This document shows, one piece after another, positions 1 to 17,168 of a stretch of DNA of 21,449 nt. The DNA lies in the IMG/VR virus record IMGVR_UViG_3300042453_000971, positions 1-21,449 of that record, one strand, 5' to 3'. The DNA is from a virus. Position 1 is the first letter of the stretch, and each line of letters starts with the position of its first letter. Below the pieces are notes generated by a model. It was given only the letters and a program-made list of their open reading frames with translations. It did no database searches and had not been told where the DNA came from. The translations under genes were made by a program, and so were the position numbers.

Positions 1-376
1 ATCCTTCGACTGGTTGATATAAGTTAAATTGTTCAGCGGCGCCAACTGTATACGCCGATGACGAAGTAAATCCTAAATAGTTGGTAAATCCAGCGGGTGG
101 TGTTACTGAACCGGCATTTTGCTGCCAAGTTCCTTTTGAAGCTGCTGCACCGTAATAACCAAAACGATCGACTGTATATGCATTGGCAGTTCCACTCGCC
201 CCAGCATTGCGCTGGTCGATCCGCATGTCGCCATTGATGATGCGGTTGCGAGCACCACTGAGCGCCCCACCGTTAAGGCTGCTGAGCTGCGCGGTGGCGG
301 TGCCGTCTGATGCCAGCACGATGGCGGGCGAGGCCGCTGAGGGGGCTTGAAGGTTGGTTGTTTTAACTGTGCTCAT
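1..376 (-). CDS. Tail fibre-like protein, N-terminal part (runs off the window)
   Basis: The frame opens at ATG 376 and stays open to the window edge, giving 125 codons without a stop. The protein starts MSTVKTTNLQAPSAASPAIV and then carries NRIINGDMRIDQRNAG followed by YTVDRFGYYG. The 'NG-D-R-x-Q/N-R ... x-DRF' arrangement is common in phage tail-fibre and spike proteins at the start of a beta-rich receptor-binding domain; this is family knowledge from memory, not a search. The gene begins two bases after the stop of the upstream fibre-like gene. Its first 60 or so codons are very GC-rich (a 60-base row at 241-300 counts 42 G+C) and the rest is much poorer (25 of 60 at 61-120). The likely role is host recognition at the virion tip. 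The C-terminus is unseen, so an enzymatic depolymerase part cannot be excluded. Confidence 0.7.
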   Translation of the reverse strand, partial: MSTVKTTNLQAPSAASPAIVLASDGTATAQLSSLNGGALSGARNRIINGDMRIDQRNAGASGTANAYTVDRFGYYGAAASKGTWQQNAGSVTPPAGFTNYLGFTSSSAYTVGAAEQFNLYQPVEG

Positions 377-378
377 GA

Positions 379-1005
379 TCAGCCCTCGTAAAGAATGTTG
401 ATCGAACCGGCGTCAAAGGTGTCGGTGCCGTTGACGGTGGTGATGCGGACGCGATCTAGGGTGCCGGACAAAGCAATTTGCCCAGACGAAATGTTTGTAA
501 CTGCAGCATTTGCAAGAAAAGACGTTGACTCGCCAATCCAAGTGTTTCCAGTTAAATTTGCAATCCTCATTATTCCGGTTCTAGCGTCAACACCCGCACT
601 ATTCTTTGTAAACAAAATACCAGTTGTTGATGTACTCGTAGTAACCCCTCCAGCTAAGTCCGAAGCAGCCGACAAGTAGCCTGATGTTGTAAAAGTACCT
701 GACCCCAGCTGCACTTGAACGAATGATGTTCCATTCGTACTCACCCCGTTAAACATCACCGTAATCCGCTTCACCCAACTCGGGATCCCAGTGAAGTCAA
801 TCGCGGTGCCGCTGGTGCTGTTCTGCGCGGTGGCAAGCACCATCCGCCCGCGATCAGCAAAGCTCAGGGTCCCGCTGCCGTTGGTGACTAGCGCCTGATC
901 TGCTGAGCCATTACCAGTCGGCAGCACCAGCGTGTTCGACCCAGCCACCGCCGGAGCGTCGATCTCGGTGTAACCCGATGTGGAGCCGTTTAGTCTGAGT
1001 GTCAT
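379..1005 (-). CDS. Tail fibre-like / receptor-binding accessory protein (208 aa)
   Basis: The 208-residue protein is rich in Gly, Ser, Thr and Asn with almost no Lys, typical of beta-structured phage fibre modules. Residues 1-55 form an adaptor with 'NTLVLPTGNG' and 'TNGSGTLSFADRG', a linker of the 'LP...L..N..G.L.F' type also seen in the main fibre of this window. The remainder ('SWVKRITVMFNGVS' onwards, ending 'GSINILYEG') looks like one compact beta-sandwich head. Its ATG overlaps the TGA of the upstream 103-aa gene (ATGA), so the two are probably translationally coupled. GC content falls sharply inside the gene, from 40 of 60 bases at 901-960 to 23 of 60 at 601-660, which fits a C-terminal head swapped onto a conserved adaptor. 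No enzymatic motif is visible. The role is inferred from composition and position. Confidence 0.65.
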   Translation of the reverse strand: MTLRLNGSTSGYTEIDAPAVAGSNTLVLPTGNGSADQALVTNGSGTLSFADRGRMVLATAQNSTSGTAIDFTGIPSWVKRITVMFNGVSTNGTSFVQVQLGSGTFTTSGYLSAASDLAGGVTTSTSTTGILFTKNSAGVDARTGIMRIANLTGNTWIGESTSFLANAAVTNISSGQIALSGTLDRVRITTVNGTDTFDAGSINILYEG

Positions 1006-1313
1006 GGGGTCACCTCCGTGGGATAGGGAAAACGAGCACGGATTTCTTCGCGCTTAGCAAGCCATTCGGCCTGGTCAACTTCGCCCGCCTGTGCCTTGAA
1101 GAACAGCGGATCAGACTCGGCGGTGTAGGCGGCAGAACGGTTGCGTTTGGCGGTTGCCAGCGCCTGCTCCTGGGCGACGACGACTGCAGCGGCATCAACG
1201 AGAGCATCGTCAAGAGTGACGGGGTTGCCGTCTGCGTCGAAGGCTCCGGCGCTGTCGTCAATGGTGACGACTTCTGGGTAAGCCTTGTAAATAGCTTCGT
1301 GGTTGAGGGTCAT
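1002..1313 (-). CDS. Small conserved phage protein in the tail-fibre cluster (103 aa)
   Basis: The 103-residue protein is unlike its neighbours: predominantly helical and charged, with no Gly/Ser-rich beta pattern. It has an N-terminal part containing 'KAYPEVVTIDD', a central Ala-rich helix and a C-terminal 'ESDPLFFKAQAGEVDQAEW' ending in 'RARFPYP'. I recognise the C-terminal signature as one that recurs beside tail-fibre genes in cyanophages, but know of no demonstrated function. A fibre-assembly chaperone is a reasonable guess from size, helicity and position between fibre genes, and it remains a guess. Start ATG 1313 overlaps the TGA of the preceding gene and its own TGA overlaps the next ATG. 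The whole gene is GC-rich (40 of 60 bases at 1141-1200), matching the adaptor ends of the flanking genes. Confidence 0.65.
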   Translation of the reverse strand: MTLNHEAIYKAYPEVVTIDDSAGAFDADGNPVTLDDALVDAAAVVVAQEQALATAKRNRSAAYTAESDPLFFKAQAGEVDQAEWLAKREEIRARFPYPTEVTP

Positions 1314-1909
1314 GCTGCTACCTCCATGACGGTGATGGAAGAGCTAGAACCGTGTGAAGCAATAAAAGTAGTTCTGTTAACATTCCAGGAGTAACCGCTA
1401 TTGGTAATTGCGCCTTGAATTTTATAAGTGAGAGAAGAAGTTGAGGACGGAGAATCCAGGAATACAATGCTTATTGGAGAAATGTTGCCCTGAGTATTGG
1501 TGGCGTCATTGGAATATGCGTTATAGACAGCAGTAGCATTGCTTGAACTTCCACCCGTTCCAACCGATAGATTCGTACTTGCGCGAAGCAGATTGAACAT
1601 TAAGAAGCCTCCATGCCAGGTGGCTCCAGAGGCCGAAATGTGGCACATCACCAGAATCTTGCTTGAGGACGATGTAGGCGTAATCGAGACAGAAAGACCA
1701 GTAACGTCAACAAACGAATTAGACGTGGATGAAAATGTGTCGAGCTTTGTGGTGCTTGCCACCTGCAAAATTTTCCCGCCAGCACCTGCCGCCAACTTGG
1801 CTGACGTGACTGCTGCTGCCGCAATGTCATCCGTGGTGATCACGCCATCGGGCAGGCCGCCTGCTGTAATTCCGGTTACGGTTCCGGATCCGTTAATAGT
1901 AATAGGCAT
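1310..1909 (-). CDS. Tail fibre-like protein (199 aa)
   Basis: I choose ATG 1909 (MPITINGSGTVTGITAGG). It lies two bases after the stop of the main fibre gene. An in-frame TTG at 1927 would add six residues (GHCLI...) overlapping that gene and is less likely. Residues 1-50 are a flexible Gly/Ala adaptor containing 'LPDGVITTDDIAAAAVTSAK'. From 'GKILQVAST' on there is a beta-rich domain with 'TGLSVSITPTSSSSKILV', a pattern common in cyanophage and metagenomic fibre proteins. The sequence ends 'SSSITVMEVAA'. The likely role is as a component or decoration of the tail fibre that contacts the cyanobacterial surface. GC drops from 40 of 60 bases in the N-terminal coding part (1801-1860) to 26 of 60 in the C-terminal part (1441-1500). 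The exact ligand cannot be read from the sequence. Confidence 0.7.
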   Translation of the reverse strand: MPITINGSGTVTGITAGGLPDGVITTDDIAAAAVTSAKLAAGAGGKILQVASTTKLDTFSSTSNSFVDVTGLSVSITPTSSSSKILVMCHISASGATWHGGFLMFNLLRASTNLSVGTGGSSSNATAVYNAYSNDATNTQGNISPISIVFLDSPSSTSSLTYKIQGAITNSGYSWNVNRTTFIASHGSSSSITVMEVAA

Positions 1910-1911
1910 AA

Positions 1912-3303
1912 TTAAACAATGACCCAAGATTGACCAGAACCCACAGTGACAGTGACACCACTATTGATAGTGATAGGACCAGCACTCATGGCATTTTTAC
2001 CAGCCGTCAACGTATAGTTAGTAGTGACAGTTTGACCGTTCTCATAGAACACATCATCACCACCAGCACCAGACGCACCACCAGCAGTACCCCAGCTCAG
2101 TTCACCAGCCGCATTGCTCTTAAGGGCATGGCCCGGAATCGTGGCATCAGTACTAGGAAGCGTCCAAGTGACGTTAGAAGCGATGGTGGTTGGAGCCTGG
2201 AAGGCAACCCAGTTACCGCCATGACCCGTGGCTTCACCAAAGCGCAGATCCGACTGGTTATCCAGAGTGACGTTGCCGGTAAGGGTGCCACCAGTCAGGT
2301 TGAGCTTTTCATCGGTCAGCTCTTGAATAGCACCTTGAACGTTGTTAGACGCAATCGTGCTATACGGGGCAAAGCTAATGCTGGCTGCATCACCAGGGAC
2401 ATAAGCAATAACCCAAGCAGAACCCGTGTACAGCTTCATAGCCGACACGGTGGTGTTAAAATACAAGTCGCCAGCAGTCAACGGATCCCCGTCGTTATCA
2501 ACGGTTGGATCGCTTGCCTTAGCACCTAGGTAGCGGTCATCAAAGCTGTCAAAGGCAGCCAAAGCAGACGCAGCAGAACTGGCAGCACTGGTTGCACTGT
2601 TAGAGGCGTTGGTGGCGCTAGTGGCTGCGTTAGAGGCAGAGGTAGCTGCGTTGGATGCCTGGGTCGAAGCTGTAGAAGCACTGCTTGCCGCATTGGATGC
2701 AGACGTAGAAGCAGCACTAGCAGAAGAACTAGCATTGCTTGCGCTGGTTGATGCGTTAGAAGCACTTGTGGAAGCTGCAGAGGCACTAGAAGCAGCATTA
2801 GATGCGCTGGTAGATGCAGCACTAGCAGAGGCTGCAGCAGCAGCTGCATAGCCACCAGCAGTACCAATGGTGCTGTCTACATAAGCTTTTGTTGAGGCGT
2901 CAGCATTGTTGGTTGGGGTTCCAACGTTAGTGATTTTAAAACCACCAGCATCAAGTGCTCCAGTCAGGGTTCCACCAGTACGGTCAAGGAAACGATCTTT
3001 GATTTCCTGAACAGAATAATTACTCTGCAGAAAGTTATCATTAAGATCCTGAGCACGAATAGCCGAACCGGCAAAGAAAGTAGACTGAAGTGCATCTACG
3101 TCAGTATCTCGGTAGATGCGAATTGCTACTCCAGCTGCCGGTGCAGTCGTAAAAGAAACAGTTGTAGCGTTGGCAAAAGTGTATGCAGTTGTTAGAGTAC
3201 CATTAAGTGTTACCTTAATATCGGTCTCTTCAAGGTATTCAAATGTAATTGAATAGTTCGTAGTTGAACCATTCCCGGTGTATGTATTTTGAGTTACAGC
3301 CAT
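1912..3303 (-). CDS. Tail fibre protein, T7 gp17-like N-terminus with Ala/Ser heptad shaft (463 aa)
   Basis: The N-terminal 110 residues (MAVTQNTYTGNGSTTNYSIT, 'FEYLEETDIKVTLNG', 'IRIYRDTDVDALQSTFFAGS', 'AIRAQDLNDNF') match the T7 gp17 tail-attachment domain family, which joins the fibre to the tail. Residues 110-144 hold the usual linker 'GTLTGALDAGGFKITNVG ... STKAYVD'. Residues 153-250 are fourteen consecutive seven-residue units of Ala/Ser/Asn/Thr, expected to form a trimeric coiled-coil-like shaft. They are followed by 'DRYLGAK' and 'GDLYFNTTVSAMKLYTGSAW', a module frequent in phage fibres, then a Gly/Thr-rich C-terminal part ending 'VTVGSGQSWVIV'. It follows the gp16-like gene after a 30-base gap. 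At 463 residues it is shorter than T7 gp17 (553), and the downstream fibre-like genes may supply the distal tip. Confidence 0.85.
   Translation of the reverse strand: MAVTQNTYTGNGSTTNYSITFEYLEETDIKVTLNGTLTTAYTFANATTVSFTTAPAAGVAIRIYRDTDVDALQSTFFAGSAIRAQDLNDNFLQSNYSVQEIKDRFLDRTGGTLTGALDAGGFKITNVGTPTNNADASTKAYVDSTIGTAGGYAAAAAASASAASTSASNAASSASAASTSASNASTSASNASSSASAASTSASNAASSASTASTQASNAATSASNAATSATNASNSATSAASSAASALAAFDSFDDRYLGAKASDPTVDNDGDPLTAGDLYFNTTVSAMKLYTGSAWVIAYVPGDAASISFAPYSTIASNNVQGAIQELTDEKLNLTGGTLTGNVTLDNQSDLRFGEATGHGGNWVAFQAPTTIASNVTWTLPSTDATIPGHALKSNAAGELSWGTAGGASGAGGDDVFYENGQTVTTNYTLTAGKNAMSAGPITINSGVTVTVGSGQSWVIV
2554..2847 (-). repeat. Fourteen tandem 21-base units encoding Ala/Ser heptads
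   Basis: Residues 153-250 of the fibre protein parse without gaps into fourteen seven-residue units, such as ASAASTS, ASNAASS, ASNASTS and ASNAATS. Ala or Ser fills positions 1, 2, 4, 5 and 7 almost everywhere. The DNA units are degenerate at third positions rather than identical, so this is an old, selected protein repeat rather than a recent slippage array. The antisense strand gives an Ala/Glu/Leu-rich open frame that is an artefact of this periodicity. Confidence 0.85.
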
Positions 3304-3333
3304 TTACGCTAGTACGTTGTGGGAATGGGTGGA

Positions 3334-6300
3334 TTACTTGTTTTGCCACTGCAGCAAGGAAACACCACGCTGCTGATAGGCTTTGTCTAGACCTTGTTCG
3401 TATTGACGACGCATCACTTCATCACGGTTACTTAGTTGTACCTCAGCCATACGTTTAGAGCGATCCAAAGCGACATCAATCTGACGATACAGGTTCATCC
3501 ATTGATTAGGATCAATGCGAGAACCGTTACCACGTTCAGTCTTAATGGATTCACGCCACATTTGAGCATCAGTACCTTGCATGATACGGCTCAGTTCACG
3601 CTTAAAGTAACCTTGTTGACCCATCAAAGAGAACAACTCAGAACGTTCTTTAGGAGTATATTCCACACCCTTGGTGCTCTTGTTAAAGCTTGGACGGGAA
3701 TCGTATTCAATATCCAGCAAGAACTGACGCTCAGCCGATTGGCCTTCGTACACCTTCATAGGAGACACAGCATTCCATGCCCGTACGAAGAAGTTCTCAG
3801 GATAACCAACTTTAGTACCGTCAATCCAGTCGTGCTTATCAGGCAGTGCACCTTTGGAATCCACAACATCAAGGAACTTGTTACGGTTACGAAGAAGTTG
3901 AGTGAACTCCATATCCAATTCACGAAGAGAAGGTGCCATAAGACGACCAAGCTCATTACGTGCACCAGACAGCGGAGCAAGAGAAGAAGCAAAGGAAGCA
4001 GCCCAACGGTTCAACGCAGCAGGGTTACCAGCCAGAACATCGTTCATTGGCTCAATACCAGCAAGCATTGATTTGTTGGTCAGGTTACCACTAATGATAA
4101 AGCCAAGTTTGTTAATGTTAGTCTCAAGATCATTCTCGGTGATGGAATCAAAGTTGTCCATCACATCAGCAGTCAAAGCCAGGAAGTCAGAGATAGGACC
4201 AAGCCCATCATAGCTATACCACTTACCGTCCCAACCTTTATACGTACGAGGTTTCCAACCAAGCTCTTGACGAACACGGTTACGCTCTTTATCGTAGTGA
4301 CCATTACCACGCAAACCACCGTTCAGGAACATGCCTGCAGCAGTCATCATGGTGATAGTTCCTACAGCCTTACGGCCACGTACCTCAGCACGAAGGGTGT
4401 TAAAGGTATCCATCATATTCTCATCAACGGGTAGACCACGCTTGGTAAGAATAGACTCTACTTCATCAATGGTAAAGTTGCTAAGAGGTTTATAGGCAAT
4501 CTCGTTGTACTCTTTAGCAAAGATAGAGATAGGGCTGTGCTTATTAGCCATATCCAGAATGTTCACCGAAGTACGGGGGAACATCAGGAACGGCTTCATA
4601 GCAGGATACTGCTCAATCAAGCGAGACAAACCATCAACAGCAGGGCTGTCAAGGTTCATAGCGATCTCACGGCTGGCATAATCAACAGCTTTGTTGGTGA
4701 TCATACCGGTGGAATCAAACATCTCATTGTATTGATCATCCAAAGCTTTTTTAATGCCATCAGCATCAAGCTTCCGACCACCATCAATGAACTTGTCGTA
4801 GATCCTACCACGTGACTCAGCGTTGGCAATCATAGCCCGTGCAAAACCGTCTAGTGCCGTCATAGCGTTAGCACCAAAGCGTAGCCAGGGATTGTTAGCC
4901 ATGTCGTTAAGAGCTTCGGCTTTGTGATACAAGGCCATTGGACCTTCATTACCACGCTGCTGAGAAGCCATGGCATACGAATGGAGAATATCCATCGTTT
5001 GCTCATTCTTCTTAACCAGGTCATCCCGCATGATGTATCCAACAGAAGTCGGATCATTAGCAGCTTTACGGTACACATCGGTCATGTGCTTCAGACCCTT
5101 TTGGAAGGTGTCCACAAATGCCGAGTATTGATACCACCCACGCTTCAGGGTCTTAACATCGCCACCAATAACAGCACCACCAAGAACGGTGATAGGCTTT
5201 TCAAGCAACAAAGCTGCGTTAGCAAAACCAGCCTTCAGCGGAGTAGACACAGAGGTAAGCACAGAGTTGTAGATATTACTCCACATACCTTGCACAATGA
5301 CATTAGGCATCTCAGGATTGCCATCAACAAAGAACTTAGGGAACCAATCCCCCAGGCTTTGATCAACATACCTGTTTAGCTTAGCCATGGTATCAATGTT
5401 ACCATCCGTAAACTCCCATGCCATCTGCAACGGCTTGAGGTATTCAGGACGCTCTTTAGATACCTGACGAAGAGTGTCTACAGTGCGCTTAGCACGATCA
5501 ATGATTTCTTGGTCAGTTGCTTTCTTGGTTTCGTTGAAGCTATCAACCATCTGTTGAACCTTACCAAAATCTTTCTCATTAAGATGAGCATAGATTTGCT
5601 TCAGGCTATTCAGACCTTGACCACGCAACTGCTTGGCTCGGCCTTGAACAATGGTAAGATACTCAACCTTATCCAGGATCTGTTCTTGAGCACGTTCAAT
5701 GGCCGCAGTGCCATCCATCAGACGAGCACCCTCTGCAAGGTCAGAGATTTGACCAGCAAAGGAAGTAGCCAGATACCCTTGAGCACGAACAGTATCCAGG
5801 TTGATGTATTCATCACGAAGCTGACGAAGAGCTTGCAGTGAACCTGCAAAGGCAATGTCACCACGAGTACCGACAGAAAGACGCTCAGTACCATCAACGG
5901 TATCAGAGAACTCGGTAAAGACCTTCTTCATTTCCTCTACATCCATACGAGGATCTAGAAGAACTTTGCTAAGGTTATCACCCTCTGCAACTACATCTTT
6001 ATAAGTAATGGTGGCTTCATCGCCAAGCATCACCTTGTACTTACCAGCAGAATCAAACGCTTGCTTCAGCGATTGATCTACTTCATCAAAGGTAGCAGGA
6101 TCAGCAGTTCTGAGCACATACTTTGCAGCAGGCTCAGACATAAAATTACGAAGTCGTCCATAAACGGTTCCATAATTCTTAGCAATCCGCACCTGGTCAA
6201 TACCAGCGCCAACAACGCCCATTGGATCAACACCACGGACACCAGCTTCTTCAACATCGAATACATCGTGGATACCAAGGTATGCACCTTCTTTGTTGTT

Positions 6301-7197
6301 AGCAAGGCCGTAATCAGCTCGTTCATCTAGGAGTTCTTCCCGACGACCAGCTGATTCAAGGACTTCATCTTCTGCTGTTACTGTTCCAGTTTCGTGTTGC
6401 TTTTTGAAGTTAACTGCCTTCTCATCCATGGGGATGAAGTTAGTAGCTTCCTTTGTCTTTTGTGTAGCACGAAGAAGTTTACCAGCACCAACCAAAAGGT
6501 CAGTGAAGATGCCAAGACCAACACCTTCATTGATGTTCTTAGCACGAATCACATCAGGAGAGTCACCATCAACGGTAGCCCAGTCATCAGAGATCCAGCT
6601 AAAGGTCTTAGGGAACATCTTTTTGAGAGTCCCTTGAAGGTTATCGTCGGTCTCGTTAATCTTGTTGGTAGCATCAACAAATGCACCAGAACCAGCTGCA
6701 ATACCAGCTTCACCCAACCACTTAACCAGTGCATTCTTACCCATCTCCCACTTGACTTTGGCATTGGCAGCCGAAGCTGCCCCACCAAGACCACGAGTAA
6801 GAAGAACAGTAGGAACTACAAAGGAAGAGATTTCACGTGCAGCTTGGAATACTTCGTTCTTGAACTTAGGGATCTTCGGAAGATCAGGAGTAGGAAGGAC
6901 GTTGTACAAGTCAACAGCCCAATCAACTGTACCAGTAGGCACAGCCAATCCTAGCTCTAGAACATCACGGGCATAGTCCCCTGCATCTTTAGGTTCAGCT
7001 TCTTCCTGTTTGGATTGTGCCGGTTGCTGCTTACTGGGCGTACCAGCAGCAGTAGCAGGTTGTGAGGCAGCTTGTTCGGCTGCCTTCATATTCATAACAG
7101 TTTGTTCGGATTGAGCCTTGTCTTGAAGCAGTTGATTTTTAATATCATCGCTTAAAGGCTCATCCTTAGCGTTGAAGTCCTCGTAAGGATTGTACAT
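3334..7197 (-). CDS. Large internal virion (ejection) protein, T7 gp16-like (1287 aa)
   Basis: At 1287 residues it is close to T7 gp16 (1318) and occupies the gp16 position, immediately after the gp15-like gene (TAA, two bases, ATG) and before the fibre. In T7 this protein sits in the internal core and is ejected to form the channel that carries DNA across the cell envelope. The N-terminus (1-90) is charged and disordered, with Gln/Glu/Pro-rich stretches. Several hydrophobic Gly/Ala segments follow ('SSFVVPTVLLTRGLGGAAS', 'VGLGIFTDLLVGAGKLL', 'FANAALLLEKPITVLGGAVI', 'GTITMMTAAGMFLNGGL'), consistent with membrane insertion. The C-terminal 300 residues are charged and helical. Unlike T7 gp16, no lytic transglycosylase motifs (ES, GxxGxxQ, AYNAG) are present at its N-terminus; they occur in the neighbouring gp15-like protein. 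Identity rests mainly on position and size. Confidence 0.75.
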   Translation of the reverse strand: MYNPYEDFNAKDEPLSDDIKNQLLQDKAQSEQTVMNMKAAEQAASQPATAAGTPSKQQPAQSKQEEAEPKDAGDYARDVLELGLAVPTGTVDWAVDLYNVLPTPDLPKIPKFKNEVFQAAREISSFVVPTVLLTRGLGGAASAANAKVKWEMGKNALVKWLGEAGIAAGSGAFVDATNKINETDDNLQGTLKKMFPKTFSWISDDWATVDGDSPDVIRAKNINEGVGLGIFTDLLVGAGKLLRATQKTKEATNFIPMDEKAVNFKKQHETGTVTAEDEVLESAGRREELLDERADYGLANNKEGAYLGIHDVFDVEEAGVRGVDPMGVVGAGIDQVRIAKNYGTVYGRLRNFMSEPAAKYVLRTADPATFDEVDQSLKQAFDSAGKYKVMLGDEATITYKDVVAEGDNLSKVLLDPRMDVEEMKKVFTEFSDTVDGTERLSVGTRGDIAFAGSLQALRQLRDEYINLDTVRAQGYLATSFAGQISDLAEGARLMDGTAAIERAQEQILDKVEYLTIVQGRAKQLRGQGLNSLKQIYAHLNEKDFGKVQQMVDSFNETKKATDQEIIDRAKRTVDTLRQVSKERPEYLKPLQMAWEFTDGNIDTMAKLNRYVDQSLGDWFPKFFVDGNPEMPNVIVQGMWSNIYNSVLTSVSTPLKAGFANAALLLEKPITVLGGAVIGGDVKTLKRGWYQYSAFVDTFQKGLKHMTDVYRKAANDPTSVGYIMRDDLVKKNEQTMDILHSYAMASQQRGNEGPMALYHKAEALNDMANNPWLRFGANAMTALDGFARAMIANAESRGRIYDKFIDGGRKLDADGIKKALDDQYNEMFDSTGMITNKAVDYASREIAMNLDSPAVDGLSRLIEQYPAMKPFLMFPRTSVNILDMANKHSPISIFAKEYNEIAYKPLSNFTIDEVESILTKRGLPVDENMMDTFNTLRAEVRGRKAVGTITMMTAAGMFLNGGLRGNGHYDKERNRVRQELGWKPRTYKGWDGKWYSYDGLGPISDFLALTADVMDNFDSITENDLETNINKLGFIISGNLTNKSMLAGIEPMNDVLAGNPAALNRWAASFASSLAPLSGARNELGRLMAPSLRELDMEFTQLLRNRNKFLDVVDSKGALPDKHDWIDGTKVGYPENFFVRAWNAVSPMKVYEGQSAERQFLLDIEYDSRPSFNKSTKGVEYTPKERSELFSLMGQQGYFKRELSRIMQGTDAQMWRESIKTERGNGSRIDPNQWMNLYRQIDVALDRSKRMAEVQLSNRDEVMRRQYEQGLDKAYQQRGVSLLQWQNK

Positions 7198-7199
7198 TG

Positions 7200-10073
7200 T
7201 TATACTTTTGTACCATGTAAGAATTGAAACCGTCTGCCGTCAGGAAGTTCAATGATAAGATGGTCTGTGCCCTCATGACCTTTGAACGTATCAACGACTT
7301 GTGCTCCATTTTTCAGTCTTACTGGCGTACCAGCAGGGGCTGCATAATCTACTCCGTATGAACCCCGTGCACGATGACGAGCTTCAGTATCAGTCAGAGT
7401 AGTTCCTTTAGAAAGGGGTTTCCACTTACCGTTCACATTGACCTCAACAAAGGAATCAACTTCATTGGGTTTGATTTCAACAGAACCAGTAGTAGCAGTA
7501 GTACCCCGTGCAACACGTTTCACATCAAGATGTGGACCCGTAGATCCATACCCAAGACTGCCAATCTTATAAACAACAGAAGGACGCATTGTTGCGGGAT
7601 CACGCCAAGCTTGACCGTAGCCATACTTAGCAGCCGACTTAAGAACCAAAGGAAGATAATTCCTGTTCTCTTGAGACTTCCCAATACCACCCAGACCTGC
7701 ATTATAAGCTTGAATGGCACGATTAACATCACCGCCGGTAGCTGCAATCAAACCCTTAAGGTGTTTGGCTGCGTAGTTGATGCTTGCAATGGGATCGTCA
7801 TAGTTTACACCAGGATGATACTCTGGCATGATTTGAGCGATGCCTCTGGCGCCAGCTTCAGACTTTGTTCTACCGTAGATAACATCATCACGCCAGCGGG
7901 ACTCTACTTCAAGAATACCAGTAAGGATAGCAGGATCAATGCCATTGGCCCTTGCAGCCTTCTGTATGGTCATTCCAAAGCCTTTGGGTACCATGGTAGG
8001 CTGAAAGCTTCCCATGCTGCTCAAAGCCCGTACAGAGCGGTTATACGTTGGTAGACGGTTAAGCAGTGACTGCATTTGAACAGACATAGCTTTATTTGCT
8101 ACTTCCATCGACTGAGGAGTAATCAAAGGTTGCATACCAGCAGCTTCACGCTGACGGTTGATAACCTCAAGACCACTAATACCAAGTTTAGATCCCCAGT
8201 ATTGAGCCTCCAAAGGCATAGACCAACCAGCTTCACCGTACTTGTCTTCCATTGCAGTCAGTTCTGCAGCATTGAAGATAAGACCAGGTTTCTTGTTAAG
8301 AGAGGATTTACCGCCACCAAGAATACTAGAACGAATCGTGTTCAGTTTATGGTTGATAGCAGCTGAGGTTTTAGCAGTACCAAGGGTAAAATTAGAGAAG
8401 TTACCAGTCTTATCCAAAGCATAACGACCCTTAGGCTGATCAAACTCTGCCATTACCTCAGCAACTGCTTGGTTAGCGGCTGCAGCAGGCTTCATACCAG
8501 CAGCAACATACTCAGAAACCTTACGATTAAACTTAGCTTGAAGCTCGCCAATCACAAGAGTAGCCATGCCACTGGTAGACCCATCAGGTGAAACCTTCAC
8601 ACGAGGATCAGTTTTAACGTGGTTCTCAATAGCTTTGAGTTGGGTTTTAAAGGTAGAAGTTCTACCAGCTTCTTGTTGCTTAGCTGCAGACATCCACTTG
8701 GTTTGAATATCCCAAGGTGCACGAGCTACTTGTTCAGTAGTAAGAAGATTCTGCTCAGCAAGCTTTTCAAAACGATCATTTAGTTCGTCTTTAGCCCGAG
8801 CATCCATGCCGTAGGTAGACTCAAGGTTCTTTAGATAAGAACTTTCTCTACCGTATTTATTGAAGAACTCTTGTTGAGCACCCTTGACATTAGCCTCAGT
8901 AGCCTCATCAGGGTTATCACGGAAGTAGGTCTCTAGCTGCTGCTCACCTTGTTTAGCAAGCATTTCACGGTCAGCTTCATCAGCAGCAAAGTTAGCACGT
9001 GCATTAGCTGCCCGCTCTTTATCAAAAGCGAGGAACTGAGTCTTCCAACGAGTACCAACAGTTTTGTTGGACTCTGGATCAACTTGAGTTTTAATTGAAT
9101 TATACCGGTCCAGAGTCAGCTCACCTGCCTTATCAAGGTTACCAAGGTGTTTCCAAAACTCTGTCCAAGCACCACGCATTCCAAGGTGGTTACCACGTGC
9201 ATCAACAGTGGCAGCCATACGCCTAACCCAAGCCAGGCCATCATTATCAACTAGCAGCTCTGAGTCAGCAAGCTCTCGTGCTTTAAAGGACTCTTCTTGA
9301 GCGTATTGAAAGCGAGCTTCACCAATGACTTCACTGCGGGCTTTCCGCATTGAAGGAAAAGCGTGTTCATTGAGAAGCGTGTTATTAACACCTACAAGAC
9401 CATACTGCTTATAGAACTCAGAGTTCAATGCACGAACAGCTTGAGCAGTTTTAATCGGATCACCTTTTGCTTGAGCCGGAGTGAAGACACTGCCATCACT
9501 CAGACGAATCTGAAGAGTGTTGTTGCTTTGAAGCTGATCTTCTAACCAAGGCTTATAGGCATCACCAGCCTGCTTAGCCATTGCACGGCTAAAGCCAATC
9601 TTCTCATAATGACCAAGTTTCTTATACAGGTTGGCTACTTCAAACGGTTCGCCTTTAGCAAGCGAATCATTAGCAGCAATCTGCATAGCTGCATCACCAA
9701 GCTTAGCTCGGTTTAGGCTTTCAGTGTACTCTTGCCACTCTTCAAAGGTAGCACCAGCATCCAGCGCCTTGTTCATACCACGTTGAATGCCTGCCTCAGC
9801 ATACATTTCAACACCGGCTTGAACAGCTTTGCCCAAGGTTTCAGAGAACTGAACAGCCCTTGCACTTTCTTCTAGATTAAGACGATTGGCAAGATCTTGC
9901 AGTTTTGCGGTTTCATTAATCGCATTCCCTTCTGCTTGGATGTTAGAAAGCTCAACTTGTTTGTTGCGCTCAAGCTGATCAGTTTGGTCAGTCAGTTGAA
10001 GAGGATTGAAGCCTTGGCGTTCTATCGGGCTTTGATACCCTTGTTGTAGTTGAAGTTCTTTAGATAGTGCCAT
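7200..10073 (-). CDS. Internal virion protein, gp15-like, with lytic transglycosylase and M23-like domains (957 aa)
   Basis: The first 690 or so residues are mostly charged helix with many Ala/Gln/Glu and no recognisable domain, as expected for a T7 gp15-type core protein. Residues about 703-815 form an SLT (soluble lytic transglycosylase) domain: 'GILEVESRW' with the probable catalytic Glu724, 'GARGIAQIMP' at 741-750, and 'AYNAG' at 789-793. Such domains cleave the MurNAc-GlcNAc bond, here presumably to let the ejection apparatus through the peptidoglycan. Residues about 870-957 resemble an M23 (LytM-type) fold: 'YGVDYAAPAGTPVRLKNG' and 'DGRRFQFLHG'. Asp909 and His953 fit metal-ligand positions, but the first His of HxxxD is Ser905, so this part is probably not catalytic. 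It starts four bases after the gp14-like stop. It is longer than T7 gp15 (747) by about the size of these two domains. Confidence 0.8.
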   Translation of the reverse strand: MALSKELQLQQGYQSPIERQGFNPLQLTDQTDQLERNKQVELSNIQAEGNAINETAKLQDLANRLNLEESARAVQFSETLGKAVQAGVEMYAEAGIQRGMNKALDAGATFEEWQEYTESLNRAKLGDAAMQIAANDSLAKGEPFEVANLYKKLGHYEKIGFSRAMAKQAGDAYKPWLEDQLQSNNTLQIRLSDGSVFTPAQAKGDPIKTAQAVRALNSEFYKQYGLVGVNNTLLNEHAFPSMRKARSEVIGEARFQYAQEESFKARELADSELLVDNDGLAWVRRMAATVDARGNHLGMRGAWTEFWKHLGNLDKAGELTLDRYNSIKTQVDPESNKTVGTRWKTQFLAFDKERAANARANFAADEADREMLAKQGEQQLETYFRDNPDEATEANVKGAQQEFFNKYGRESSYLKNLESTYGMDARAKDELNDRFEKLAEQNLLTTEQVARAPWDIQTKWMSAAKQQEAGRTSTFKTQLKAIENHVKTDPRVKVSPDGSTSGMATLVIGELQAKFNRKVSEYVAAGMKPAAAANQAVAEVMAEFDQPKGRYALDKTGNFSNFTLGTAKTSAAINHKLNTIRSSILGGGKSSLNKKPGLIFNAAELTAMEDKYGEAGWSMPLEAQYWGSKLGISGLEVINRQREAAGMQPLITPQSMEVANKAMSVQMQSLLNRLPTYNRSVRALSSMGSFQPTMVPKGFGMTIQKAARANGIDPAILTGILEVESRWRDDVIYGRTKSEAGARGIAQIMPEYHPGVNYDDPIASINYAAKHLKGLIAATGGDVNRAIQAYNAGLGGIGKSQENRNYLPLVLKSAAKYGYGQAWRDPATMRPSVVYKIGSLGYGSTGPHLDVKRVARGTTATTGSVEIKPNEVDSFVEVNVNGKWKPLSKGTTLTDTEARHRARGSYGVDYAAPAGTPVRLKNGAQVVDTFKGHEGTDHLIIELPDGRRFQFLHGTKV

Positions 10074-10077
10074 TTAT

Positions 10078-10770
10078 TTAACCCTTTGCCATTGTTCGAC
10101 CAACAGACATAGCAGTAGAAGCACCACTTGTCAAAGCACTCATAATTGTCAAACCTGCATTCGGTTGGAATGGAGCACTTGGCATTTCAGTTGCAATAAA
10201 CTGTTGAAGCTCAGGAAGAACACCAAGATCCCCATAAGCATTAAAGACGGACTGTGTGGCTTGACGGCCAAGTGCTTGACGGGTTCTACCGGCTTGTCCA
10301 ACAACACCGGTAAGGCGTTCGGCTTCCATAGCAGCATTCCGTCCAAACACACCAAGGGTTCCAAGAACATCAGCACGTTCTCGTGAACGACTAACTCCTT
10401 CAAAAGCTGCACGGTTAAAGCCTACAGCCTGTGACAATGCGGTCAACTGGCCTTGCCTGGAGTAAGCTGATTGAGCAAATGCAGCACCCAGTTCACGTTG
10501 CAAGTCTTCACCAGCACGTGCAAAATCTTCTTGAATAAAGCCAAGGTTCTGCGTAAAGCGACCGGTCTGATAACCATAAATGTCGGCAGTACGCTTATTG
10601 GATGCAGCAACAAGTTTAGCGTTCAGTTCATTTTGACGTTGAACCCGTGCTTTCTCTTGTTCGTATTGTTGTTGCCTTTGGGCACTTTCTTGGCTTGCAC
10701 CAAACAAAGACTGTCCAATAGACAGCACGCCCATAATACTGGCGCTTACTGGTTCAAAGTATTTTGGCAT
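10078..10770 (-). CDS. Internal virion protein, gp14-like (230 aa)
   Basis: Position between gp13- and gp15-like genes and size (230, against 196 in T7) suggest the gp14 family, whose T7 member is ejected and inserts into the outer membrane. The N-terminus has a weakly hydrophobic segment ('SASIMGVLSIGQSLFG', residues 8-23). A long Gln/Glu/Arg/Ala-rich helical region from about residue 25 to 120 would form coiled coil. The C-terminus ('GLTIMSALTSGASTAMSVG') is a small-residue hydrophobic segment of the kind that could insert into a membrane. The ATG follows the TAA of the previous gene with no gap. No enzymatic motif is present. The assignment depends on synteny more than on sequence identity. 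Confidence 0.65.
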   Translation of the reverse strand: MPKYFEPVSASIMGVLSIGQSLFGASQESAQRQQQYEQEKARVQRQNELNAKLVAASNKRTADIYGYQTGRFTQNLGFIQEDFARAGEDLQRELGAAFAQSAYSRQGQLTALSQAVGFNRAAFEGVSRSRERADVLGTLGVFGRNAAMEAERLTGVVGQAGRTRQALGRQATQSVFNAYGDLGVLPELQQFIATEMPSAPFQPNAGLTIMSALTSGASTAMSVGRTMAKG

Positions 10771-11214
10771 TTAGTTTACTTTTGCAAATTCCACGTAATA
10801 GATGTTTCGTGTGTCACATGGGACGACGTTAATAACCTTGAAACCAATAAGTCTCAAGAACTTTCTTAGATTATTGTTCTGAATATCTACTCTGTTCCAA
10901 AGAAATGGTCCCAAGGTCTTAACAACCTCTTTGGCTTGTTTGATGAATGTCTTAGGGTGTTTACGGATTTCATTTGTCATGTTCATCCATACACACCCAT
11001 AATCATCAACACCAAACAATGCAGCAGGTTTGCCGTCAGGACTAATTAGAAGAAGGGGATTACTATAAATAGTATCTGCAGCCATACACAGAACTGGATT
11101 CTTACCAGCTCTGAAAAAGTCTGCTTTCCCTTCTTCTAATAGATCCCTTGCTATTGCAGGTACATCTTCTAAAGTAGCAGGTCTTATGCTAAACTTAGGG
11201 GTGGAATTAATCAA
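10771..11214 (-). CDS. GNAT-fold protein, T7 gp13 family (147 aa)
   Basis: The protein reads as a small GNAT acyltransferase: 'FSIRPATLEDVPAIARDLLE' is the usual beta1-alpha1 start, 'KPAALFGVDDYG' fits beta2-beta3, and 'NNNLRKFLRLIGFKV' at 113-127 is the characteristic C-terminal helix and strand. T7 gp13, which lies at the same place after gp12 and is needed for virion maturation, belongs to a GNAT-like family (Phage_T7_Gp13/DUF2833). I infer the same role; real acetyl transfer has not been shown for the family to my knowledge. The only sensible start is TTG 11214, two bases after the tail tube B stop, because the first in-frame ATG is at codon 44 inside the domain. The start must therefore be a non-ATG codon. 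Confidence 0.75.
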   Translation of the reverse strand: MINSTPKFSIRPATLEDVPAIARDLLEEGKADFFRAGKNPVLCMAADTIYSNPLLLISPDGKPAALFGVDDYGCVWMNMTNEIRKHPKTFIKQAKEVVKTLGPFLWNRVDIQNNNLRKFLRLIGFKVINVVPCDTRNIYYVEFAKVN

Positions 11215-11216
11215 AG

Positions 11217-14147
11217 TTAACCTCTGTAGAAACGGTTGCTGTATTTACCTTCCCACGTCAAATCCAATAGGTTTACTGGGAATGGAGTGTCCCCAATAAT
11301 CCTAATAGAAATGTTTCGGTTTCGCTGGTAAATTGGAACAACATGCAGCGAAGTAGCAGAAAGGTTAACGTTGTTGAGTACGTAAGTGTTGGGCAATGTG
11401 GTAGACACTACATTCTCCCAGGTAGGGATACCAGTCAAATCAACTTCATAAGTTACAGGACCGCTAAGACCCGTACCAACTGTGATTCGATGAATGATAA
11501 GATCAGCAGTTTGATCACTGCTAACAAAGCTTCCCTCACTCTTAGTAATATAAAATGTAGGAAGCTCAAGTGACATGTCGTATTGGTATCCAATGATTAG
11601 ATCCCGACCACGATAGTCACCATCAATGTCAGCATAGTAAGCACCGGTTGTACCTGCTACTGTTGGTTCAAGGACAGCACCAACGGATTGACTGGAAGTA
11701 ACATTACTACCTCCGATGTAACCACCAAGGGCTACAACCACAAAAGTTTTACCGGCTACAGTGTCATAAGGTAAAAAGACACGGGTTGTATCAGTGCCAG
11801 AATTGTAAGTTCTGTAAGGGTTGATGGTCCAATTATCCAAAAACACATCAGTCTTTTCACCAGTGGGAAGAGTAAGGAACCCCTCATCACTTGATTGACG
11901 AAGATTAAATGCTTGAACTTCTACTTCACTACCATTAGCCACTACAGTGTAGTAAGTGCTTTGATCAAAGAACTGATCCAACAAAGTACCAGCCAAGGTC
12001 CACTTATACCACGACTGTACTCGTTTCTCACTTAGTTGCAAGAACCGATACTGATAGACAGTGCTACTTCCTACAGTACCCAATGAAATGATTGATGCAG
12101 CTGCAGAAGAAATAAAGCTATCAATAGTACTTGGAATCAGTTCAGGAATGTTATAGGTCAGCTCTTCTGCAAGAGGAGGGCTGTCATTCCTAATATCTAT
12201 CAGGTTAAATAGCTTTGTGTAAAGAGAGGTTTTAGCAATAAAGTTAGTAGAGATACCAGTAGAAACAGCTTCAACATGAGCCTCACACTCATATGACGAC
12301 ATAGTATTAATCTTTGCCGTCTTAGGACTCAGAATGTCAGAGTCAGTGCTAAGCAGAAACTGTTCGGTATTACCAAATAGAATCAGACCAACAGCTGTAG
12401 GCCGTACATAATTAAGAGTAACCGGTTTAGCAGTTGATGCCGAAATATCAATCGGGTCATCATCTGTTGAGGCAAGAGCGGTGGTGTTAAAGAAGTTAAA
12501 CAGGTCACCTGCTCGGCTCATGGTTACCGTTTCATTAGACAAGAAACCAAGCCGGTTCCGATAAAGGAACATGTGCTTGATGGTAGTTCCAATGAAGCTA
12601 GGATTAGGATTAGTTGTAAGATCACCAACCAAACGGTCATCCCAAGTCACAGGTCCATAAGTAAATGAACCATCCGTTTGACGTACCAGTTGATGGGGCA
12701 TCGTCAGTGGATCAAGCTTATACGTAATACCAGGTCCAACAGTCTCTTCCCATGTACCAACACCGTAGGCAGCACCAGAAGAAGTATTGAACTGTAGCCA
12801 CATATCATCAACTTCAATATCAGCAGAGTTGACAACCTTTACAAGGTAACCATCTTTAGCTTGACTGGGAAGAGCTGATACCGTAGCAACAGTATCCTGG
12901 AAAGCATACAAGGCATCCTCTGAAGGACCACCTATAACCTCAATAGTAAAGGAAGCAGTGCAACTAATGTAGATACCAGCACCAACTCGTATGGCGGTGT
13001 AAGTCTTACCTCCAAAAACTTGGTTGTGAATATCACCAACAAGGTCATTAAGGATGGAATTAACATCACCACCTGTACCAGCGTTGTGAGTACCACGCAA
13101 GGTTCCATCAAGTTTGATCTGATAATGACCTGTACCTACAATACTAAGAACAACAAAAGCTTGATGAGGAAGAGCAGCTGTTGTAGTCACTGTATCCATT
13201 GCTACAGTCTTTGCTTTATTTAAAACAAAGGTGTAGTCATTGAGAGTTAGTACTTCAATGTCTTGAGGAGTAGCATCCTTAAGGTAAGCATTGGCTGGGA
13301 CAGTAGTGATAGCACAGTTATTTACCTGTGTATTATAAAGACCCAGCTTAGTAGCTTCATCAGTTACAGCGTTGTTGTAGTTAGTCTGTGCTGTGTTCAT
13401 TGCAGCCAAGGCTGCAGACAGTTGACCAGCAGTATGTGTAGCGGCTACATCATGTATCGCTGTAAAGACCCTGTAGCCGTCTGCAGCAAGCCTTGGGTGC
13501 TCATCAGTACGTTCGGTACCAAGAGCGTATCCAGCGGGCAAGGAAACGCTTGTAGACACCACTGTGTCAGCGTTCTTAACCATGTACACTCCAGCTGCAT
13601 TCTTAGTGATACCTGAATACAGGTACACTTGATAAAAAGAGTTAGGCGAACTAGGAGGAGTGTAGTTGTATTTTACATCAAACAACTCTTCCGTAGTACT
13701 GTTTTGACCAGCAAGGGCTTCAGCATACGTAGACTGAGCATCATTCAGTTCAGTCAGCTTAACCTTTTTAAAAGCTACTGCAGTGTTATAGTTAGCCAGT
13801 GTAGTTTTTACATTAGCTATTACACACGTACCAGGGACACCAGTGTTGGTTCCCATGTTAACAGCTCGGGGAGAACCATCTGTAAGATTCCAGATGCGAA
13901 ATACGTTGTTAGCATACTGAGCAACGTACTTCTCTTCTTCATCCCTAAGAATCGAAAACCAACGACCAGTGGTGGTAGCGTTTGTCAACGACTCAATGTA
14001 TTCACCACCTGGGCGCTTCAACATACCCAACGCAAAGTCAGGCAGGGTATTCACAGCATCACGGACTTGTCCAGGAAACTTCTTACTATCTGGCTGTTGT
14101 GAGATACCAAGAAATAGGTTTGGGATTCTTTGGCTGATTGTGCTCAT
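11217..14147 (-). CDS. Tail tubular protein B, T7 gp12-like (976 aa)
   Basis: The N-terminus ('RIPNLFLGISQQPDSKKFPG', 'NTLPDFALGMLKRPGGEYIE') is the hallmark of the gp12 tail-nozzle family, hexameric in T7. The central part keeps 'HMFLYRNRLGFLSNETVTMS' and 'ADLFNFF', and the C-terminus ends in the beta-rich 'ISIRIIGDTPFPVNLLDLTW'. At 976 residues it is about 180 longer than T7 gp12 (794). The surplus lies at about residues 112-276, where two Ala/Asn-rich helices flank a beta-type insert before the canonical 'IEVLTLNDYTFVLNKAKTV' resumes. ATG 14147 overlaps the TGA of tail tube A (ATGA), so the two nozzle proteins are translationally coupled. The product extends the tail below the connector and supports fibre attachment. 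Confidence 0.9.
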   Translation of the reverse strand: MSTISQRIPNLFLGISQQPDSKKFPGQVRDAVNTLPDFALGMLKRPGGEYIESLTNATTTGRWFSILRDEEEKYVAQYANNVFRIWNLTDGSPRAVNMGTNTGVPGTCVIANVKTTLANYNTAVAFKKVKLTELNDAQSTYAEALAGQNSTTEELFDVKYNYTPPSSPNSFYQVYLYSGITKNAAGVYMVKNADTVVSTSVSLPAGYALGTERTDEHPRLAADGYRVFTAIHDVAATHTAGQLSAALAAMNTAQTNYNNAVTDEATKLGLYNTQVNNCAITTVPANAYLKDATPQDIEVLTLNDYTFVLNKAKTVAMDTVTTTAALPHQAFVVLSIVGTGHYQIKLDGTLRGTHNAGTGGDVNSILNDLVGDIHNQVFGGKTYTAIRVGAGIYISCTASFTIEVIGGPSEDALYAFQDTVATVSALPSQAKDGYLVKVVNSADIEVDDMWLQFNTSSGAAYGVGTWEETVGPGITYKLDPLTMPHQLVRQTDGSFTYGPVTWDDRLVGDLTTNPNPSFIGTTIKHMFLYRNRLGFLSNETVTMSRAGDLFNFFNTTALASTDDDPIDISASTAKPVTLNYVRPTAVGLILFGNTEQFLLSTDSDILSPKTAKINTMSSYECEAHVEAVSTGISTNFIAKTSLYTKLFNLIDIRNDSPPLAEELTYNIPELIPSTIDSFISSAAASIISLGTVGSSTVYQYRFLQLSEKRVQSWYKWTLAGTLLDQFFDQSTYYTVVANGSEVEVQAFNLRQSSDEGFLTLPTGEKTDVFLDNWTINPYRTYNSGTDTTRVFLPYDTVAGKTFVVVALGGYIGGSNVTSSQSVGAVLEPTVAGTTGAYYADIDGDYRGRDLIIGYQYDMSLELPTFYITKSEGSFVSSDQTADLIIHRITVGTGLSGPVTYEVDLTGIPTWENVVSTTLPNTYVLNNVNLSATSLHVVPIYQRNRNISIRIIGDTPFPVNLLDLTWEGKYSNRFYRG

Positions 14148-14824: not shown

Positions 14825-15946
14825 TCAGAAAGCAGAAGGAGCGGTAGCACCCACATACAGCTCAACAGCGCAGGCGGGGTTCAGGTAGTCCGCGCCCATT
14901 GCGAGCCTTCCGAGGATAACGTCTCCTTGGTAGATCACCGACACGTCGCCGCTGGTCACTTGCACTTGAGGACCAATGGCCTCAACCACACCAGCAGCTT
15001 CCTTTTGGAAGATCAGACCGCAGGACTTAGTACCCACTTCAGCAGCAGTACCGTAGTCGTTGTTCACACCGCTGCCGGTAGCAGCGTTCTCAAGAGCAGG
15101 ACCAACGAAGCTACCCACGTTACCAGGCGAGGTTTCACCAGTGGTGCCGCCGTACTTGGTACCGTAGTTGCCCAGGAACGGAATGTTCATGGACTTGTAG
15201 ATCTTGATGCCGGCAATCTCGATGATGCCGTTACCACGCTGCAGGGAATCACCCTGAGCATCACGGTTCACCAGACCGCTGGTGCCGATGGCTTGGATCA
15301 GAGCGTAGTACTGGCGGGGGTTCAGAACACCCACACGACCGTCGCTGCTCACACCCTTCTCATCCATGGCAGCAGCAGCGTCATAGAACGCAGCCACCAG
15401 GGCGCTGGAATCGAAAGCATCGGAATCGTTGGCAGAAGAGCCAACACGGATTTGAGTACCACCGGGCTCAACGAAGCTGGCCTTGGTGATCGGGCTGGCT
15501 TGACGAGCGCCACGAGCGATAGCACGGAAGATATAACGGTCATACTTCTCAGCGAGAGCATAGCCGATCTTACGGGAAATCTCAGAACGCAGGTCGTAGT
15601 GAGCCAGCACTTCATCCAGCTCATACACGAAAGCCGAGCTAATTAGAAGGTCATCACAGGTGATGGTCTTCTCAGCCACCGGAGGCGCACCATCGGTGTT
15701 ACCAAGGATCGCGTTGCCGGGGGTGTGGAACTCAGCCGTGGTACGGCCAGTGTAGATGAACTGAAGAGACTTGCCGTTCTTCAGAGTGCGCTTCATAACC
15801 AGGTCACGAGCAATCGACTCGTGCTGGAAGCCTTTGAACATCTCGCCGCTAAACAGCTTGAGATAGAGAGCACGGGCGTCGCCCGCACCGTTATCCTGAC
15901 CAGGACGAGTCAGGCTCGTGGTCAGGGTAGAAGTTTGATGTGCCAT
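14825..15946 (-). CDS. Major capsid protein, T7 gp10-like, HK97 fold (373 aa)
   Basis: The N-terminal region ('DARALYLKLFSGEMFKGFQH', 'KRTLKNGKSLQFIYTGRTTA') and the middle ('YELDEVLAHYDLRSEISRKI', 'LAEKYDRYIFRAIARGA') match the gp10A family of T7-like phages. Later 'DGRVGVLNPRQYYALIQ' and the C-terminal 'RLAMGADYLNPACAVELY' complete it. Its length (373) is near T7 gp10A (345). It assembles the icosahedral head on the scaffold encoded upstream. The gene is richer in GC than most of the block (37 of 60 bases at 15301-15360; 35 of 60 at 14941-15000), possibly reflecting codon choice for high expression. ATG 15946 has no Shine-Dalgarno; the 20 bases before it are pyrimidine-rich on the coding strand. 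A 163-base leader precedes it and a terminator follows it, so it can be expressed apart from both neighbours. No frameshift signal for a gp10B-like extension was seen. Confidence 0.93.
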   Translation of the reverse strand: MAHQTSTLTTSLTRPGQDNGAGDARALYLKLFSGEMFKGFQHESIARDLVMKRTLKNGKSLQFIYTGRTTAEFHTPGNAILGNTDGAPPVAEKTITCDDLLISSAFVYELDEVLAHYDLRSEISRKIGYALAEKYDRYIFRAIARGARQASPITKASFVEPGGTQIRVGSSANDSDAFDSSALVAAFYDAAAAMDEKGVSSDGRVGVLNPRQYYALIQAIGTSGLVNRDAQGDSLQRGNGIIEIAGIKIYKSMNIPFLGNYGTKYGGTTGETSPGNVGSFVGPALENAATGSGVNNDYGTAAEVGTKSCGLIFQKEAAGVVEAIGPQVQVTSGDVSVIYQGDVILGRLAMGADYLNPACAVELYVGATAPSAF

Positions 15947-16045: not shown

Positions 16046-16124
16046 GTCGGCGTACCGGCCTCAGCCTAGAGAGTAGAGATCCGACTCTGAGGTGTCCCTA
16101 CTCCAGTAATCACCCAATCACTGG
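16046..16124 (-). other. Nested inverted repeats (possible structured RNA) at the psbA stop
   Basis: On the minus strand, CCAGTGAT pairs with ATTACTGG (16124-16117 with 16110-16103, one G-T pair) across the psbA stop codon. Immediately after, GAGTAGGGA pairs with TCTCTACTC (16103-16095 with 16079-16071, one G-T pair). The 15-base loop of this second stem holds CCTCAG (16092-16087), which can pair with CTGAGG (16064-16059), and GTCGG (16085-16081), which can pair with CCGAC (16050-16046). Either loop pairing would make a pseudoknot. There is no U-tract, so it is not an intrinsic terminator. It could protect the psbA mRNA 3' end, be a processing site, or act in the capsid leader. Confidence 0.5.
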
Positions 16125-17168
16125 TGCTTTGTGAGTAGCCAGATCAAGGGGGAAGTTATGAGCATTACGTTCGTGCATCACCTCAAAGCCAAGACCAGCT
16201 CGGTTGAGGATGTCTGCCCAGGTGTTGATGACGTTACCTTGGTTATCAAGGAGCGACTGGTTAAAGTTAAACCCGTTCAGGTTGAAGGCCATGGTGCTGA
16301 CTCCTAGGGCAGCAAACCAAATGCCCACAACAGGCCAAGCAGCCAAGAAGAAGTGCAGACTACGAGAGTTATTGAACGAAGCGTACTGGAAGATCAAACG
16401 GCCAAAGTAACCATGAGCGGCTACGATATTGTAAGTCTCTTCCTCTTGTCCAAACTTATAGCCTTGGTTCTGAGATACCTCTTCAGTAGTTTCACGCACA
16501 AGCGAGGACGTAACCAGCGAACCATGCATTGCACTGAATAGCGACCCACCAAACACCCCAGCGACACCCAACATATGGAAGGGGTGCATGAGAATGTTAT
16601 GTTCGGCTTGGAACACAAGCATGTAGTTAAAGGTTCCCGAAATGCCCAAAGGCATAGCATCGGAGAACGAACCTTGACCAAACGGATAGACCAAAAATAC
16701 TGCGGAAGCGGCGGCGACTGGGGCAGAATATGCGACAAAGATCCAAGGCCTCATCCCTAATCGATAGCTAAGTTCCCACTCTCGTCCCAGGTAAGCATAG
16801 ATACCAATGAGGAAGTGGAACACTGTGAGCTGATATGGACCCCCGTTGTAGAGCCATTCATCAAGTGAATTAGCTTCCCAAATTGGGTACAGGTGAAGTC
16901 CGATGGCATTGCTGCTCGGAACGACGGCTCCCGATATGATATTGTTTCCATAAAGAAGACTTCCGGATACAGGCTCACGGATGCCATCAATATCGACAGG
17001 AGGAGCCGCAATAAATGCAAGAATAAAACAAGTGGTGGCTGCAAGAAGACACGGAATCATCAGTGTCCCGAACCACCCAACATAAAGACGATTATCAGTG
17101 CTGGTTACCCAGCTACAAAAACGCTCCCAGTTGGACTGAGAGCGGGGAGCTGCGAGTGTAGCAGTCAT
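16110..17168 (-). CDS. psbA: Photosystem II reaction-centre protein D1
   Basis: This is a full-length D1 in perfect register with cyanobacterial numbering: Tyr161 (YZ), His118, His198, His215 and His272, the Mn-cluster ligands Asp170, Glu189, His332, Glu333, Asp342 and Ala344, and the plastoquinone-site Ser264. Residue 130 is Glu, as in high-light-type D1. The five membrane helices and the de-loop '[16 protein letters not shown]' are present. Cyanophages use psbA to replace photodamaged host D1 and keep energy flowing during infection. It is the last gene of the auxiliary cassette; ATG 17168 lies eight bases after the RlpA-like stop, leaving no room for its own promoter. After the processing site at Ala344 only eight residues remain (THKAPVIG), about half the usual cyanobacterial extension, giving 352 residues instead of about 358-360. 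Confidence 0.98.

Follow-up and report, generated by a model that had tools for sequence, protein, structure and literature searches.

A putative modular tail-fibre cassette with GC-rich arms and exchangeable AT-rich heads in a T7-like cyanopodovirus fragment

In a fragment of a T7-like cyanopodovirus, the tail-fibre region very probably forms a modular cassette, in which GC-rich arms act as a frame and as recombination sites while the AT-rich heads between them are exchanged. Abrupt composition steps lie within the genes, heads are saturated between arms that are recently related, a head is replaced at strain level, the same head recurs on different arms, and arms are exchanged across phage types. 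Taken at the level of sequence comparison, the swapping of heads below the scale of the gene is well supported.

The fibre cassette and its genomic setting

The window, the whole stretch of DNA analysed here, is a 21.4-kb virus record with its structural genes on the minus strand, and is a fragment of a psbA-bearing T7-like cyanopodovirus. It contains a portal (PF12236) in addition to the following genes:

3334-7197, minus strand: T7-type internal virion protein (phrog_6651)
7200-10073: internal virion protein with an SLT transglycosylase domain
16110-17168: psbA

In the protein encoded at 7200-10073, a C-terminal M23 peptidase match is weak and sub-threshold. Immediately next to psbA lies a small gene (17177-17527) encoding a double-psi beta-barrel (RlpA-like lytic transglycolase) domain. 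The GC3 of the backbone genes is mostly 0.30-0.44, with 0.50 in psbA. The probable major capsid gene (14825-15946) has a GC3 of 0.61, uniform along the gene and well above that of the other structural genes, possibly through codon selection for high expression. A megablast of window positions 1-12000 against cultured phages gave no match, and the close relatives therefore come from metagenomes.

The left end of the window is occupied by the main fibre gene (3303 to 1912) and then by four small genes (1909 to 1310, 1313 to 1002, 1005 to 379 and 376 to 2), all on the minus strand and overlapping or nearly abutting. The open reading frame of the last one remains open, cut by the contig end. The cassette consists of the following parts:

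1912-3303, minus strand: main tail fibre, with a T7 gp17-type N-terminal anchor, an Ala/Ser-rich linker and a distal part common to unrelated phages (PF03906; GC3 block)
1956-2692, minus strand: distal fibre block, conserved as DNA and imported relative to the anchor (blastn to locus L004, 91.7% over 737 nt)
1310-1909, minus strand: small fibre gene, with a conserved N-arm (residues 1-43) and a C-terminal domain of one of two or more unrelated types
1002-1313, minus strand: 103-aa protein of the cassette (best matches are PHROG families of unknown function, E=5e-11)
742-1005, minus strand: codons 1-88 of the 208-aa fibre gene, its GC-rich N-arm (GC3 steps down at codon 88)
472-741, minus strand: putatively exchangeable AT-rich head of the same gene, codons 89-178 (GC3 about 0.33)
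379-471, minus strand: GC-rich, DNA-conserved C-arm of the same gene, codons 179-208 plus stop (GC3 0.79)
193-376, minus strand: GC-rich N-arm of the next fibre gene (193-358 is 95.8% identical to L004)
2-192, minus strand: start of the AT-rich head of gene 2-376, cut by the contig end (GC3 0.15-0.30)

In the main fibre protein, the N-terminal T7 tail-fibre domain (PF03906) spans residues 5-146 (E=1.9e-22, 80 bits against a cut-off of 25.2). No T7 gp17 C-terminal tip is found, there being no Pfam match beyond residue 250; the distal part is instead shared with other phages. The upstream end of the L004 match, at window position 2692, falls within the Ala/Ser-rich linker, a short way beyond the T7-type anchor, and a high-GC3 block at 2094-2667 sits inside the matching stretch. 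Diverged tandem DNA repeats extend along the linker from 2599 to 2829. In the family of the adjoining gene 1310-1909, two kinds of domain follow the 43-aa N-arm, the window's own and an unrelated one that ends in VAIFR; in relatives with the latter, the N-arm alone is 79-93% identical. The 103-aa protein is possibly a fibre assembly helper, which is a guess.

The structural model of the 208-aa protein is all-beta (pLDDT 88.7), with conserved strands at 55-90 and 185-207 and a variable region at 96-178. A PDB fold search with this model gave no match at E<=0.001, and the model matches many predicted phage proteins. Judging from the model, the arms may constitute the shaft and base, with the variable strands forming the exposed tip.

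Composition and history of arms and heads

Abrupt GC steps in three fibre-like genes, from a GC-rich N-terminal part to an AT-rich C-terminal part, had been proposed in a sequence-only reading of the window. Its GC counts in 60-base rows were right within one, the recomputed values being 42, 25, 40, 23, 39 (earlier 40) and 26. The steps were assessed against codon shuffles confined, gene by gene, to sites encoding the same amino acid, which hold protein and codon usage fixed. In gene 379-1005 (p=0.0002), they fall at codons 88 and 178, corresponding to window positions of about 741 and 471, and GC3 is about 0.74 over codons 1-80, 0.25-0.40 over codons 101-180 and 0.79-0.80 over codons 181-208. 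In gene 2-376 (p=0.0012), the high-GC stretch ends at codon 56 (about position 208), GC3 being about 0.72 over codons 1-60 and 0.15-0.30 thereafter. The step in gene 1310-1909 is not beyond chance (p=0.29), and the proposal holds for the former two genes and not for this one. A step absent from the earlier list is found in the adjoining fibre gene 1912-3303 (p=0.0002), where codons 212-403 (about 2667-2094) form the high-GC3 block. Gene 1002-1313, sampled earlier as GC-rich, is indeed so throughout (GC3 0.50-0.75, overall 0.63), with no significant positional pattern. None of the 11 other window genes tested by codon shuffling is significant, the lowest p being 0.11.

The GC-rich N-terminal part is present as described, but gene 379-1005 has arms on both sides of the head, returning to about 65% GC at 406-465; its pattern is arm-head-arm. 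Because GC rises again at the end of this gene, the high-GC blocks cross gene junctions (about 1313-741 and 471-208). Amino-acid composition is ruled out as the cause of the steps, which outlast correction for it both under synonymous shuffling and in a per-amino-acid comparison among relatives.

This comparison covers 84 genes, namely the window's 208-aa gene and 83 relatives, mostly from IMG/VR metagenome contigs; the relatives were found with conserved peptides, so that arm identity is inflated by selection. The GC content at four-fold-degenerate sites is 0.59 in the N-arm, 0.34 in the head and 0.66 in the C-arm. The N-arm lies above the head in 92% of the genes and the C-arm in 90%, and the head is lowest in GC for Thr, Gly, Val, Ser and Ala each taken separately. 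In the family of gene 2-376 (48 genes), the arm reaches 0.64 against 0.41 for the rest and is higher in 98%; the family of gene 1310-1909 (75 genes) displays a weak contrast, 0.47 against 0.41.

GC3 was also compared with the background of the gene's own genome, for 20 genes, each with 7-25 kb of further coding sequence from its phage. The mean differences are +0.06 for N-arms, +0.14 for C-arms and -0.20 for heads. In the window, where background GC3 is 0.40, it is the arms (0.74 and 0.79) that stand out, and not the head (0.33). What is foreign to this genome is the GC-rich arms, and their composition fits a GC-rich phage background. Read most simply, the arms reached this podovirus from GC-rich phages, too recently to have drifted to its composition. 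Of the earlier idea of two sources, the different histories and the apparent swapping of heads stand, but it is the arms, not the heads, that are foreign to this genome; and with relatively AT-rich heads the rule in almost every relative, no single second source for them is established.

Arms and middles do not share one history, in agreement with the separate origins suggested for GC-rich ends and heads. Among the 32 closest relatives, the same-codon excess over saturation is 0.38 in the N-arm, 0.03 in the head and 0.30 in the C-arm: the arms share recent DNA ancestry, and the heads are saturated. Nucleotide identity is 0.70-0.96 for the N-arm (742-1005) in the closest 30 or so relatives and 0.87-0.96 for the C-arm (379-471) in most of the closest ones, while for the head (472-741) it falls to about 0.33-0.5 between phages whose arms are at least 0.88 alike. 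In 67 pairs with similar N-arms, head identity is below 0.6 in 63, between 0.6 and 0.8 in none, and above this range in the remaining 4, which are nearly identical. Recombination breakpoints had been expected at the GC steps. The maximum-likelihood breakpoints of 36 arm-matched pairs have medians at codons 92.5 (IQR 89-96) and 179.5 (IQR 178-180); the steps of the window gene, at codons 88 and 178, lie close by.

Exchange between phages and rival explanations

A DNA search with the whole window against the first 80 loci matched the arm blocks many times and the rest almost never, and matches around the 208-aa gene are concentrated at 721-1010. These loci extend only 4 kb to either side of the fibre gene, so most of them could not show the backbone, and whole records were therefore searched separately. 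Arms are located in T7-like podoviruses (records of L020, L022, L186, L188 and L208), in phages with a lambda-type portal (records of L007, L018, L019, L025, L026, L029, L039 and L184) and in a record that encodes a tape measure protein (L009). A common T7-like ancestry of the relatives is ruled out for most large records by the portal searches. In an arm-only tree of 39 genes, T7-like and lambda-type-portal phages are intermixed, and the grouping of four podovirus genes as one clade is rejected (p-AU 1.6e-12). The portal match in the record of L026 (G016:C1:3158-4774) reads through three TGA and one TAG codons, with a long open frame overlapping it; the match may run past the end of the gene, or the gene may be broken. 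A bacterial genome scan for relatives yielded only six more distant matches, all in bacterial MAG contigs, and no cyanobacterial host.

Individual pairs of loci display the exchange at close range. Between L028 and L032, identity is 97.6% along a 2.8-kb stretch that takes in the N-arm; the heads are about 41% alike and the C-arms about 95%, and the interior of the next gene or region is also replaced before identity returns. One head, 98-99% identical, occurs in both L017 and L033, where it occupies neighbouring gene slots and follows N-arms 37-67% alike. An identical head is shared by L014 and L033, with arms about 90% alike, and L003/L183 are a further instance of one head that recurs with other arms or in another genome. 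The window gene and L210, from independent contigs, agree evenly at about 90% along both arms and the head. Complete genomes of cultured Rhizobium phages have heads that diverge more than the shaft, though less cleanly, with a GC drop in only some.

Divergence without exchange, in which the gene evolves in place with its ends under purifying selection and its middle changing fast, and GC follows constraint or expression, is very unlikely. It would be in keeping with a head of similar length that retains some scattered residues, and with an arm GC above that of the head in some 90% of relatives or more, whatever the genome GC. Yet divergence in place can produce neither identical heads on arms 37-67% alike nor identical arms around heads about 41% alike, and head identity is bimodal. 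For the swap pairs this explanation is refuted unless those contigs are misassembled. Near-identical arms in metagenome contigs are places where assemblers can make false joins; the relatives are IMG/VR contigs of this kind, and their arms share long identical stretches. Such chimeras, with reads of different phages joined at the arms, are nevertheless given just as little credence. The resemblance of the window gene to L210 throughout means that the window's own join exists twice, the contigs of L028/L032 and of L017/L033 bear different sample numbers, and head divergence against a more conserved shaft is also seen in the complete genomes of cultured Rhizobium phages.

Hypermutation by a diversity-generating retroelement, or inversion of a tail-fibre segment, is extremely improbable. 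Variation confined to a defined stretch of a fibre-tip protein would suit either, as would the annotation of one relative as 'major tropism determinant', but the heads differ over about 85 codons and not at scattered adenines. Reverse transcriptase (PF00078) was found in none of 31 records (the window and 30 related ones, often fragments) and serine recombinase (PF00239) in none of 26, and the region holds just one weak inverted repeat of 16 nt (88%). GC-biased gene conversion concerns the GC contrast and not the swapping: arms that recombine often would gain GC, and heads would not. Arms GC-richer than heads in nearly all relatives are compatible with such a process, which we regard as an unlikely source of the contrast. 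In GC-rich phages, the N-arms match the background (+0.06) and the heads are depressed (-0.20) in the 20 genes compared; with N-arms at genome background there, a GC-rich source pool is enough.

In the modular cassette, the T7-type fibre anchor would represent the native part. The imported set would start in the Ala/Ser-rich linker of the main fibre gene and continue downstream as small fibre genes, built from a conserved GC-rich arm, a variable AT-rich head and a second conserved GC-rich arm. The arms would be drawn from a DNA pool common to GC-rich phages of other tail types, and would supply the structural frame, comprising the shaft, the base and the closing strands of the all-beta domain. 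Their nearly identical DNA would offer the homology for recombination, through which co-infecting phages, and also adjacent copies of the gene, could trade heads; the presumed mechanism of exchange is thus homologous recombination in the arms. The sequence-only reading had suggested a cassette for swapping host specificity. Its swapping component is borne out; family context and fold class suggest that the heads may bind receptors, and a change of host range would be the benefit of the exchange.

Known fibre systems and implications

T4-type gp38 adhesins carry hypervariable host-contact segments within a conserved frame. By description, the window resembles them in having variable segments in a conserved frame; the fold predicted for its 208-aa protein is all-beta, with no confident match in the PDB. 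That phages exchange fibre modules is already established (PMC10579305, PMC3909814), and the variant described here lies in arms on both sides of the head and a change of composition where they join. The Alteromonas schitovirus A5 and myovirus V22 share a host recognition module, for which recombination has been invoked (PMC10579305). As in the window, a fibre module is exchanged among morphologically distinct tailed phages; in A5 and V22 the whole tail fibre and its chaperone are shared, whereas in the window sub-gene heads lie between conserved arms, with the composition step at the joints. In metaviromic islands of marine phages, the PF03906 T7-type anchor is conserved and the distal fibre or receptor-binding genes are hypervariable between near-identical phages, an arrangement like that of the window (PMC3909814). 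Coverage there is lost over the C-terminal part, in passages that describe no conserved C-terminal arm, breakpoints or codon composition.

In the T7-like cyanopodovirus P-SSP7 of Prochlorococcus (GU071093), three places are similar to the 199-aa gene 1310-1909, with 38% identity. They lie just after the fibre gene (L257:3001-4750), beside the tandem small genes PCPG_00036-00038, which are annotated as conserved hypothetical only, without an arm/head analysis. In a literature search of partial coverage, no paper came up that combines fibre with GC content, codon usage and domain swapping, a weak sign of novelty.

The domain that contacts the host changes too quickly for alignment, which makes the host range of phages difficult to predict. 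More broadly and only tentatively, the arms might constitute a standing DNA recombination platform across unrelated phages, with one AT-rich head pool circulating in phages, T7-like and long-tailed alike, that infect picocyanobacteria or neighbouring bacteria, and the GC step might be a general sequence-only marker of head-swap joints; we hold this wider proposal to be possible but somewhat doubtful. If composition steps mark the borders of heads, raw sequence would be enough to locate heads, with no need of homologues, and the arms would tell which phages can trade heads, even where no other genes are shared. Exchange between T7-like podoviruses and lambda-type-portal phages is already visible in the arm-based tree, among metagenome-derived virus contigs.
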